From Branchiostoma floridae (Eukaryota; Chordata; Leptocardii; Amphioxiformes; Branchiostomatidae): a DNA stretch of 64,000 bases. The number at the start of each line of letters is the position of its first letter. Within the stretch, counting starts at the first letter, position 1. Under the pieces are notes generated by a model. The model ran no database searches. It was not told where the DNA came from and worked only from the letters and a program-made list of their open reading frames with translations. Both the position numbers and the translations under genes were made by a program. Below, piece by piece: positions 43,101 through 49,100 of the stretch. The stretch lies in assembly GCF_000003815.2 (NCBI RefSeq), contig NC_049992.1, positions 9,730,337-9,794,336 of the forward strand, written 5' to 3'.

Positions 43101-46100
43101 TGCAGGGGTCAGAGTTCATCTGCTTGTGTCCAGCTGGGTTTGAAGGTGACATGTGTGACGTCAATGTGGATGAGTGCGCGTCGATGCCATGTTACTCCTT
43201 AGCCACCTGTTTGGATAGAGGTATGATCCATAGTAATAAGCTTCCGAATTTCACAGTTTGCTTCATCATAACGTTCTAGATGTGCCCATGTGATAACGTA
43301 CATGGCTCTAGCTTCAATGGGAACAATGATATCAAAAGGAACCCGTTATTTCACTAAGCGTTATCGTTATCTTTTCGTGTTATTTGACTCTTTTGTACAT
43401 CACGACAGTTGCCGGGTATGAGTGCGTTTGCGCTTCCGGTTGGACTGGTGAACGGTGTGACGTCAACATCGATGAGTGTGCGCCTTCGCCGTGTTTGAAT
43501 GGAGCAACTTGCGTTGATGAGGTATTTGTACATACTAGACTCATACCATCAATAAATGGTGATAATAGCACACAGATATTACTGTCTTAAATGTTTTAGA
43601 TGTGGTCAATCTTAGTGCGTTCAATTACGACAATGATGGAACACTTTCGCCTTCGAAAGGGAGAGAAACCATAATATTTAACGAAAAGGGGCGTGATTTT
43701 GGGCTTGATAACAGGGAAATGGTACAGTATTACACACGGCTAATGATACTTAAAGTAAGAGTGTAAGAAACGGATGTATCCCCTTGACAGGACAACGACT
43801 TCCTGTGCCTGTGCGCGGATGGATACAGCGGTGCGTTCTGTGAAGTCAACATTGACGATTGTAGTGACAGCCCGTGTAACGACACCGCTGTGTGTGTGGA
43901 TCTGGTGGACAGTTTCCAGTGCCTCTGTCAGGACGGCTACACTGGCAAGTACTGCGAGGTCGACATCAACGACTGTGAGGCACAACCCTGTCAGAATGGC
44001 GGAAAGTGAGCATATTTCAAAAATCATTTTAGGGTGAGAGGTACATGAAATAAAGCATGGCCCTTCAACATAGGTATGTAAGGGTAGGTTTTCAAGTTGG
44101 ATGCATTCCTGGGGGTTACAATATTAATACCTATCTTTCATTGAAGCACCAGCCGTCACAGTGTTGTGAAGAGTTCCCATTTTGACGTAGTTCCGCCTTT
44201 TGCCAGGTGCACGGATGAGGTTGGAAGGTACACCTGCCAGTGCACACCTGGGTTTGTCGGCTACAACTGTGAACTGAATGTCAACGAGTGCGCGTCAAAC
44301 CCCTGTCTGAACCGTGCGTACTGTGAGGACAAGATCAACTCATATCAGTGTCACTGTGCACCGGGGTTCGGAGGGACACACTGTGAAGACGGTAAGCATG
44401 TTTCGATTTGATTTGGAGTGTGGTAATGACATAATTGCTATGTTGACACATTTCGTTTATTGTTTTCCATAGAGCTAAAGATGAGGTAAATGGTCAGTCC
44501 AGTAGGGGGACTTCTTTGGCACTAGATTACGTCTTTTTATTTTGAGTTGACTTTTCTGGAAGAATGAAATACCAGTGATTTAGATAAATTCCGTTCTGGT
44601 AAGATGTCCTTCCAACATGACTTGATGAAAGCCACGTTTGTTCCTCTCTCTCCCTCAGAGCTTTCTGCAGATTTTGACCTGAAATTCCCCAAGGGAATGT
44701 TGTCCGAGTTCACCTCTGGTAAAATAGATCGAGATCTTCCGGCTGTGACAGTTGCCTTCTGGATGAAGATGGCTCAGGACAAGAAGGGCCACAAATACGT
44801 CTTCTCCTACGCAGCAGAAGAAGTGAGTAAATCCTGCATGCTTAATTGCTATCAATATTAGTGCATGAGTCCTTAGATGTGGTTGCTACAACGATACCGG
44901 TATTTGGCGGCTAACAAATGTGCAAAAAAAAATGCATTCCTATGTAGACCTGTATTTTTCTCACTTCTATCTGGTCTTCAATATCTATCAATGCCTTTAG
45001 TAGAAGGCTGTATAAAAGCAAATTGTGCTTTTTGCCTAATAGTCACAAAAGATATGTGAATAAAATAATAGAAATATCTATCAATTTTACCGAAGGACAA
45101 GTAATGTACTGATTCAAACCACGTAATGCTTTAGCTCTGATTTGGTTTCAATGATGTTTCGCATTAGAATGGCGTGGTCCAAGACAACGCTCTTGTTATT
45201 GAGGTGGACAACTTTAACGAGTTCCTGTTCATGATCAACGGAGAGAAGATCACGACCACCGCTTCAGTAGAGGACGAGGCGTGGCACCATTACGCTTTTA
45301 CGTGGTCTTTGGGTAAGTGTGTATCGGTTTCGTTTTTTGTCGTAACTCCTCTTAGTTCTCAGCATACACATGAGCCAAGTTCCCAACTTTATCCCGATCT
45401 TAGATCATTTTCAAGTCAGAATTAATTGATGCTACTACTGTTAAAAGTGTTAACTATAGCTACTACTTGAAACACCACATGTGTTGACCAAATTCCCACC
45501 GTAGCAGGCTACCATGTTTATTACCATCGCGGCAAACTGGTTAATGTTGTTCGAGACACCAAAGCACAACAGAAAGTGATTAAAGCATATCTCAAGAATC
45601 TCAATAACAAATTTACAAACAGAAGACGTTATCTACATGGTATCTTGTACAAAAGGGAACAAGTCATCAGTGACTTGTAAGACGCACTTCTTCCGCCAAA
45701 TACTGAGTTACAATCACGCTGCGCGTGCATGTCTCGGTCAGTTTTGCAGTGCCCCGCTGGTTATCAACTGTTCAGAGACGTCTGCTACAAGGTGTTCGAC
45801 AGTGAAAAGGACTACTTCGCGTCGAAAGCTGTGTGTGAAGAGGATGGTGGCACTCTGGCAATGCCGCGGGACCAGTCTGTTAACAGTTTCCTGATCAAGC
45901 TAAGGTCTTCACTAAACCGGAACGTTAGGTACTGGATAGGACTAACGGATAGAGAGAAGGAGGGAACGTGGAGTTGGACTGATGGAAGACCACTGGGCCC
46001 CTTCTCCAGTTGGGCAGACGGGGAGCCGAATAATGCCGGGAACGAAGACTGCGTTGTTTACGCCGCTCACCCATCAGTACGGGACAGGTGGAACGACGTG

Positions 46101-49100
46101 CCATGCTCTCTCCGCTACAGATTCATCTGCCAAAAACCTGCTACGGGTGAGATGACCACTTCATAAACGTCATGTGTCCAGTATTTTGTACTACCTTGGA
46201 ATATCCATAAAAGAAAGCAGGTGTCAAATAATGTAAGCCAATAAGCTATTGATGTGGCTATAAACTAAGCTAATCAGAGCAGCATTTTGATAAACAAAGT
46301 TTACCCCCATCGTTCTGTTCAACCTGGTTCACAAGCAAAACCCACAGCTAGCTATAGATGTATATGTTTTCCTTCGAATAGTATTTTCAAAAAAATTTTG
46401 AAGATATGTTTTTAGATTCATTCCTACTCTAACAGTCACCTTGTCAACAAAGTTTGCTGAGCACGATAACAATACCCATAGCTGCACGGACCAGCTTGAC
46501 GACGACAGTGAAATAAGGGCTACAGAATGACCAATGTCTCCCCCAGTTCTACAGTGTCCTGCCGGATATCAACCCTTTAGAGGTGCATGCTATAAGGCTT
46601 ACGACACTGAGAAGGACTACGCCGAGTCAGAGGCAGTCTGTACGTCAGCCGGCGGGACCTTGGCCATGCCGCAGGACAGTTCACTCAACACCTTCCTCAT
46701 TACACTGAAAAATGCACTGAATCCTGGAGTCCGATATTGGATCGGCCTTAGCGATAAAGCAAAGGAAGGAGCTTGGCGATGGAGTAACAACAGGCCCATA
46801 GGAGACTTCTCAAGTTGGGCTGAGGGGGAACCGAACAACGCAGGGAACGAAGATTGTGCGGTTTACGCTGCTCACCCCTCAATAAAGGACAAGTGGAACG
46901 ACGTCCCGTGTACGCTTCGCTACCGGTTTATCTGCCAAGTACCGGCAACTGGTGAGACGCAAAGGCTTCTGGCTGGCTTGCATCGTGTAGATTGTTGCAC
47001 TGTTCCCTTCTTCAACACAGGGATGCCCATTGATACTAGAATATCGTGAATGTGTTTTCGAAATAGAGTCGAAACAAATGTTATTGTTGTTAAGATTATA
47101 GCAACGTATTAGGCCGAAGTATACTTTCACTAAATATAGTGCAAACAAAACAAACAGATCATAAGGTTATGCACATTTGGAATGGCCACTCTGTCATCAA
47201 TACTGTCAAAGCTTTTGAGATATATGTGAAATTTGTTCATTCATTGGCAACTGCAAGTGCAAACATCAACCTAGCAATTCCTGATGGATTGATGACATAA
47301 GATTATTTTTTATCCTAAATCTGTTTTTTACGGATTCAGGCTCCGCGGAGGAACAGTGGACTTTCTACGTGGACGGTAAGCGGGTCGCCGGAGGTTCCGA
47401 GGGCGGCGGAGGACGGCTCATTCCCGGCGGAGGGACGATAGTCCTGGGGCAAGACCAGGATGAGATCCTCGGAGGATTCGACAGCAAGGAATCGTTCAAG
47501 GGGGAGCTTAGCAGGTTTGTAGGTTTGGGTTTAGATTAAGAATTAGTGTTTTTAATCGAGAAAATACTTGACTGTGAAGAATTATGTTATTCCGTGATCC
47601 AGATGTACCTAGCAGACACCGAAAATACGTGTTTTACGTGTTTTCAATAGTCATTGATTGAAGAGTTGTTCTATTGACCTATTTCTTTCAGTTTTCTATA
47701 AATTGTGGCGTGTACATCCTAATAACCAAACCTCGATAAAAATTTATTTTCAGTATACTAGTATATTTCATGCAACAAAGGTAAATTAAATGCATCTACT
47801 ATCAAATTATTAACTGTTTGAGTTTCCGCACATGATCATACACTACGTTCATTATAACCAATGTCTATGAACTGGTCAATAATAGTAAATTGTGTAATGA
47901 CAGGTTAAACGTGTGGGACCACGCCCTGACGGAAGCACAGATCTCAGTGATGTCGCGTCACTGCACGGACGACTCCGGAAACGTCCGAGCCTGGCCGGAT
48001 TTCAGAGCAGCTTCTGAAGGCCTTGAAGTCAGACAGGGGTCAGCTTTCTGTGCTGGTGAGAAGGATTCATTTGTCTTGATACTAGATCTAGTACCAATCA
48101 AAATAAGGCGTTGGTATGTTACACCCGCACCTTCCTAATCGTAAATATACCCGGTGTAAGAAGCTTTTTATTCTTACCAGCCTACTAAAAAGCCCCCTTT
48201 TTACAAAGGGCCTACGGCCAATTCGGCATGCCTGGCAGTATTCACATCTTTATATTTAAAAAAGAACGGCACAATTTTCATCAATAACCTGTACCAACGT
48301 AACCTTCAATTCATCACTTTCACAGGGAAGCCATCTCTAGCAGACGTGAATGAGTGTGCATCTAACCCCTGGCCCTGCATGAACGGAGGGTCGTGTGTTG
48401 ATCACATCAACACTTTCACCTGTCTCTGTGCACCAGGATATAGTGGGATAAACTGTCAAACAGGTAGGCTATTCTGTCCTTACGTTTTATCAATCACGAC
48501 TATGTACGATCTAATTGATTTCAATTGTTTGCCTATAGAATGTCTGTCAAACAGGTGGGCGATATGCTTGATTCCAGTTACGGCGGCCATTTTGGATTTT
48601 CTGGGTTCATCCGGGGTCATTGCACCAAAACGAGGCTAGCCTGACATGATTGTGTCATACTTTAATGTATGAAGGCCAAAGGTAGCTTGGCCCCTCTAAC
48701 ATGATGCCAGGCTATCTTCGTTTTGGTGCAATGACCGCGGAAAATTTCCAAAATGGCCGCCATAACTGGAATCATGCACAGCACATACCATCGTTGTGCA
48801 CTTACAAATGTGGCAAAGGTTCCACAGCATGGTGATCCTCTACTTGCATCTTCCATCCGACGATTCTGTCACCTATTACAGGCATGACATCACTACCTGT
48901 GACTTGTGGCATGAACACTTTTGATCTGTTGTGCGCACCACAACCCCCCACCCCCGTCCATTGTGGTGAAAAATGAATATCGTTCAGTTTTACTCAGATG
49001 CGCTGATTCACTCTATGACCTATAAATATTAATAGCATGATTTGTCTATACCTTTCCAACAGACATCAACAAGTGCGGCCCGAACAACGCTCCGTGTGAT

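Follow-up and report, generated by a model that had tools for sequence, protein, structure and literature searches.

A pair of constrained C-type lectin exons within the split pentraxin of an SVEP1-like lancelet gene: candidate cassette modules in an old phase-1 intron

Two complete lectin domains in a pentraxin intron

What might two complete lectin domains be doing in an intron that interrupts a different recognition domain? The question is raised by a 64,000-nucleotide stretch of the genome of the lancelet Branchiostoma floridae (C14:9730337-9794336, hereafter the window, to which all positions given without a contig refer). Here an SVEP1-like gene encodes a pentraxin in four exons, A to D, and the intron between B and C holds two exons that each encode a C-type lectin domain (CTLD). 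An earlier note had read these as symmetric exons arising by duplication, a choice between which would diversify ligand binding. The exons concerned, and the intron that receives the lectins, are as follows:

44659..44822, + strand: pentraxin exon A; donor phase 0, borders read by eye, 54 codons aligned with the paralog described below
45168..45312, + strand: pentraxin exon B; phase 0 to phase 1, ending in a ten-residue stretch plus G
45313..47339, + strand: host intron splitting the pentraxin; phase 1, 2027 bp
45742..46146, + strand: CTLD1 exon; 405 bp, phase 1-1, with EPN at 46023-46031, NED at 46041-46049 and WND at 46089-46097
46547..46951, + strand: CTLD2 exon; 405 bp, phase 1-1, with EPN at 46828-46836, NED at 46846-46854 and WND at 46894-46902
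47340..47514, + strand: pentraxin exon C; phase 1 to phase 2, opening with [G] and a twelve-residue stretch and including the LGQDQDE stretch
47904..48055, + strand: pentraxin exon D; donor phase 1

The observation as such is confirmed: both lectin exons are 405 bp long, have GT-AG borders and are phase 1-1 in a phase-1 intron, and each encodes a whole C-type lectin domain, matching PF00059 with E-values of 1.3e-22 (CTLD1) and 4.3e-20 (CTLD2) and scores of 81 and 72.9 bits against a curated cut-off of 22.6. The two agree at 96 of their 135 residues and 278 of their 405 bases, including six cysteines (positions 4, 15, 32, 104, 122 and 130) and the EPN, NED and WND triplets. EPN and WND are motifs of the Ca2+-dependent, mannose-type C-type lectins, and sugar binding through the EPN/NED/WND site is predicted for both domains. 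When CTLD1 was compared with the chains of PLA2R, LY75, the mannose receptor and DC-SIGN in the PDB, the best match (E 6.7e-43) was to a multi-CTLD chain; in all these proteins the domain stands as a separate bead or head instead of being nested within a second domain.

The 127 differences between the two exons are distributed 23/29/75 over the three codon positions (chi-square p = 5e-9). The comparison of nonsynonymous (dN) and synonymous (dS) divergence proposed in the earlier note gave a dN of 0.19 and a dS that is either 1.8-2.3 or, by NG86, not computable owing to saturation, i.e. a dN/dS of about 0.1. The third-position bias and the low dN at saturated dS argue that both copies have long been kept as protein, and support the action of purifying selection on each. 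No similarity was detectable between the introns surrounding the one exon and those surrounding the other: taken in 10-bp steps, the flanks agree at 7 of 10 bases beside each border and at 1-6 of 10 further out.

The host intron falls between FTWSL[G] and the [G] that begins the twelve-residue stretch of exon C, a point which, with strands inferred from the pentraxin alignment, probably corresponds to the short turn that links the TWS strand to the WTFYVDG strand. Exons A, B, C and D joined without the lectins match PF00354 at 2e-28; placing CTLD1 in the joined sequence splits this match into two stretches, so that it stays intact only when the CTLD exons are skipped. As the earlier note had claimed, joining neither lectin exon, CTLD1, CTLD2 or both gives a reading frame free of stops through the pentraxin exons. 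The nearest solved pentraxins are NPTX2 and NPTX1 (PDB 9lad and 6ype; E 7.7e-23 and 3.4e-22), which align over most of the domain, the LGQDQDE stretch included. In contrast to the host, they have no insert at this hairpin, where the host pentraxin is two residues longer even without the CTLDs.

The same intron is empty in homologous pentraxins

A search of the genome (513,431,437 bp in 431 contigs) with the joined pentraxin identified an inverted paralog on the - strand (C14:9705422-9706972), some 70 kb distant from the copy in the window. The two pentraxins are identical at 188 of 209 residues, with a dN of 0.05 and a dS of 0.21-0.28, and on these values the window pentraxin is still constrained relative to its paralog. 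Between 40.7 and 53.6 kb of the window, 18 of the 19 alignment rows are collinear with the paralog, the nineteenth being an EGF cross-match. At the equivalent place, and in the same phase, the paralog has an intron of just 280 bp, and the 12 kb compared gave no CTLD match with an E-value of 1 or below. In a third pentraxin, on contig C12 (42-47% identical), an intron of 404 bp occupies the same position in phase 1, again without a CTLD. Given that this phase-1 intron is common to three pentraxin genes and filled in one, it is most simply taken to be older than its filling. Exon shuffling of a symmetric module is marked by a phase 1-1 exon in a phase-1 intron whose counterparts in homologous genes are empty, and this is the configuration found here.

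Two further observations concern the window-paralog pair. The EGF block at 44196-44399 is 97.5% identical to the paralog as against 85% for the block with pentraxin exon A, an unevenness that possibly reflects gene conversion. In the paralog (C14:9700400-9712400), the interval equivalent to that of the WSC-like and SUEL exons, which lie further downstream in the host gene, has a 1476-bp open reading frame (ORF) that by eye resembles a reverse transcriptase.

Splice signals and the transcript that may carry the lectin exons

Splice sites were scored with a matrix and ranked among the 4167 GTs and 3676 AGs. The CTLD donors stand at the 99.8 (CTLD1) and 99.7 (CTLD2) percentiles, and the phase-1 acceptors at 87.0 and 84.2, which is inside the range of the host acceptors scored (exon B 75.6, exon C 98.9, exon D 65.1 and the next EGF exon 98.7). 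Splice positions also agree between CTLD1, CTLD2 and a closely related CTLD on contig C2, with the form AG/TTnTnCAGTG ... G/GTGAGA.

Taken together with the sequence evidence above, we consider it probable that the two CTLDs are functional symmetric modules shuffled into an old phase-1 intron of the pentraxin, and that they serve as in-frame cassette exons of the host gene. The phase 1-1 modules would have entered, singly or as a pair, at the beta-hairpin of the pentraxin. Skipping them would yield an ordinary pentraxin, as in the paralog with the empty site, and including them would equip the hairpin with one or two lectin heads dependent on Ca2+. The constrained state of the window pentraxin is compatible with regular skipping as well as with an insert-tolerant fold. 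The ends of a CTLD lie close together in known structures, which bears on whether a pentraxin could tolerate such an insert. The arrangement itself is real, constrained and structurally plausible, the empty site provides a natural control, and a nested lectin protein may be its product. More tentatively, and at somewhat less than an even chance, cassette splicing might produce pentraxins with zero, one or two CTLDs on the hairpin and thereby switch an SVEP1-like adhesion protein between plain and lectin-armed forms, the paralog being permanently plain.

Several points weigh against cassette use in the host. That host transcripts include the exons, that the pentraxin fold accommodates them and that any regulation exists are all inferred from DNA sequence, and constraint by itself is silent on which transcript carries the CTLD exons. 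A two-row AlphaFold2 model of CTLD1 had a mean predicted local distance difference test score (pLDDT) of 41.4; it was uninformative and was not used. Further, an inner AG lies 8 bp inside each CTLD exon (45748-45749 and 46553-46554), and by the same matrix these outscore the acceptors that in-frame inclusion needs (95.4 and 99.1 percentiles); if used after exon B they would cause a frameshift and a premature stop (codon 121 or 111, counted within the examined stretch).

An unlikely alternative is that the CTLD exons belong to a separate transcript nested in the intron, with its own leader and end and outside the host mRNA. They could splice to an unseen signal-peptide exon; an in-frame ATG lies 13 bp upstream of each (45729 and 46534), a hydrophobic 13-codon start is present at 45429, and an ATTAAA occurs at 45579. 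Against this, neither in-frame upstream stretch reads as a signal peptide by eye, the frame at 45429 lacks a phase-1 donor, and the intron sequence after each CTLD is free of AATAAA, ATTAAA and AGTAAA. Moreover, both exons end in strong phase-1 donors, which would be needless for an intronless copy.

It is distinctly improbable, to our reading, that the inner acceptors are the real ones, with exons starting at 45750 and 46555. Besides having the higher scores, they would change the exons from phase 1-1 to phase 0-1, the phases of exon B, and the frame running from exon A through such a 397-bp form to exon C is open; the lectin exons would then either replace exon B or, after it, act as poison exons through the stops noted above. 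Tandem acceptors are also present in the C2 copy. However, the codons between the two AGs, which this arrangement would exclude, keep VLQ in CTLD1, CTLD2 and the C2 copy despite different leucine codons (TTG, CTA and TTA), and read TLE in a related CTLD on contig C12, which by eye has a phase-1 acceptor further upstream. Replacing exon B would, in addition, lose part of the pentraxin domain.

Where the lectin exons may have come from

To place the host CTLDs among their relatives, the best 150 of 1353 and 150 of 1267 candidates from the two genome searches were scored. Among these, the closest outside relatives with both queries were the C2 copy (73% identical to CTLD1 and 65% to CTLD2), followed by the C12 copy (61% and 59%). 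In a protein tree of 20 rows, made up of the two host CTLDs and the 18 matches ranking next among those listed, these four form one group (100/100) apart from the other 16, without a settled branching order among the four. The free nucleotide tree places CTLD1 with the C2 copy (87/61, weak); the free codon tree instead groups CTLD2 and the C12 copy (80/42) and puts the C2 copy beside four outgroup rows from C10, C2 and C7 (76/47), both weak. Of three constrained topologies, the one uniting CTLD1 with the C2 copy was best under both nucleotide and codon models, and the approximately unbiased (AU) test rejects neither of the others, giving the tree that pairs CTLD1 with CTLD2 a p of 0.137 (nucleotide) and 0.325 (codon). 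Synonymous divergence is 0.7-1.0 between CTLD1 and the C2 copy, 1.8-2.3 between CTLD1 and CTLD2, and 1.6-4.3 between CTLD2 and the C2 copy, which has the same exon borders as the window pair.

Of the grounds given for exon duplication, the equal lengths and the matching borders hold, but CTLD1 is at least as near to the C2 copy as to CTLD2, and with the former dS below the latter, local tandem duplication is unproven as the full story. Judged by these divergences, the CTLD pair looks older than the split between host and paralog, which produces a conflict of timing. It would mean that the paralog lost the pair, that a ready-made pair moved in from an unfound source, or that gene conversion rejuvenated the paralogous exons; no source pair was seen elsewhere in the genome among the best-scoring candidates.

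The C2 copy is flanked on one side by a WSC-like exon and on the other by what is by eye a two-exon CTLD, neither exon of which has a Pfam match. A joint transfer of the lectin and the WSC-like exon out of the C2 gene was considered and is not supported: with the WSC-like domain of the host as query, 37 places other than the window itself match it better than the C2 one (best 150 of 210 candidates scored). Also on contig C2 (C2:10520829-10524257), pentraxin and CTLD matches occur in one open frame of 404 residues, the same frame by coordinates; unlike the nested CTLDs of the window, the lectin there follows the pentraxin match and neither interrupts the other.

These results also bear on the suggestion that the two exons are mutually exclusive products of a local tandem duplication, switching ligand specificity, which we regard as quite doubtful. 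They are homologous neighbors of equal length with the same phases and borders, and the tree pairing them is among those that the AU test retains. On the other hand, the frame including both is open, the intervening intron is a GT-AG intron of 400 bp and so not a very short one, and the energies of intron-intron duplexes were equaled or bettered by 129, 124 and 101 of 200 shuffles, leaving no signal of exclusivity in spacing, frame or intron pairing; the best constrained topology, too, unites CTLD1 with the C2 copy. Nor is a switch of ligand favored by the domains themselves. Both have the same predicted Ca2+/sugar triplets, within a stretch that is conserved, and differences claimed to center on the ligand loop are in fact fewer there, affecting 5 of 34 positions in the segment SSW..WNDVPC as compared with 34 of the 101 others (Fisher p = 0.048, for a comparison of this EPN-WND segment with the rest in which the segment was chosen after the alignment was seen). 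With the triplets and this segment conserved, an effect on avidity or on presentation seems a better guess than a changed specificity. What survives of the initial interpretation is a pair of intact, symmetric, frame-neutral and constrained exons in a split pentraxin, whereas ligand diversification, simple local duplication and an either/or choice are not supported. That the exons are unused relics trapped in the intron, as the lack of CTLDs in the paralog and the C12 homologue might suggest, is scarcely credible, in view of the absence of stops and frameshifts, the strong third-position bias, the dN/dS of about 0.1 at saturated dS and the conserved splice positions.

Nesting and exon shuffling

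Shuffling of phase 1-1 modules is a known process in extracellular mosaic proteins, and normally adds modules between domains. The window CTLDs have in common with it the symmetric modules and the phase-1 recipient intron; they differ in that this intron is inside a domain. The literature searched (open-licence PMC papers) did not reveal any account of a pentraxin with a CTLD nested in it. According to passages of one study (PMC12373286), the dispensable genes of lancelets are enriched in lectin C-type domains, and a further finding on Branchiostoma is cited there; on these passages, new domain combinations as such are to be expected in a lancelet. The unusual part is the nested position of the CTLDs rather than a new combination as such. 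If the reading as host cassette exons is true, this locus would combine a symmetric module placed within a different recognition domain with a natural control, the empty sister gene some 70 kb off. It would then offer a clean case for the origin of a nested domain, and would also show whether cassette splicing buffers a domain insertion. Over the stretch compared, the paralogous pair differs by the two CTLDs, the WSC-like and the SUEL exon, and the question is open to ordinary RNA-seq.

The host gene and its surroundings

The host was traced with Pfam and treated, on sequence alone, as a single gene:

25892..53733, + strand: extent of the SVEP1-like host gene as traced, both ends provisional
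51156..51470, + strand: WSC-like exon; phase 1-1, at 20 bits below the curated cut-off of 27.8
51723..52001, + strand: SUEL (galactose/rhamnose lectin) exon; phase 1-1

Its domain order is VWA, sushi, two HYR, three Ephrin_rec_like, EGFs, pentraxin, EGFs, WSC-like, SUEL and two sushi. Of 30 ORFs of the window that were scanned singly against Pfam, 5 had no match; pentraxin exons A and D are among these and enter the pentraxin match only when the exons are joined. SVEP1 (polydom) has VWA, sushi, two HYR, ephrin-receptor-like domains, an EGF run and the pentraxin in that order, which the host shares; it differs from SVEP1 in the two CTLD exons within the pentraxin and in the WSC-like and SUEL exons after it. 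SVEP1 also has a long C-terminal sushi array, and two sushi exons (53.1-53.7 kb) were found in the C-terminal part traced here. The WSC-like and SUEL exons have no match in the paralog stretch compared, save for one of 29 residues (E 0.91) that contains a stop.

Upstream of the host gene and divergent from it, the - strand between 1109 and 23703 carries one or more mosaic genes whose exons read by eye as EGF, sushi, ephrin-receptor-like and trypsin-like. At the start of the window (185-1097) lies a 42-bp tandem repeat of 21.7 copies, through which run ORFs of 349 residues on the + strand and of 334 and 291 residues on the - strand.

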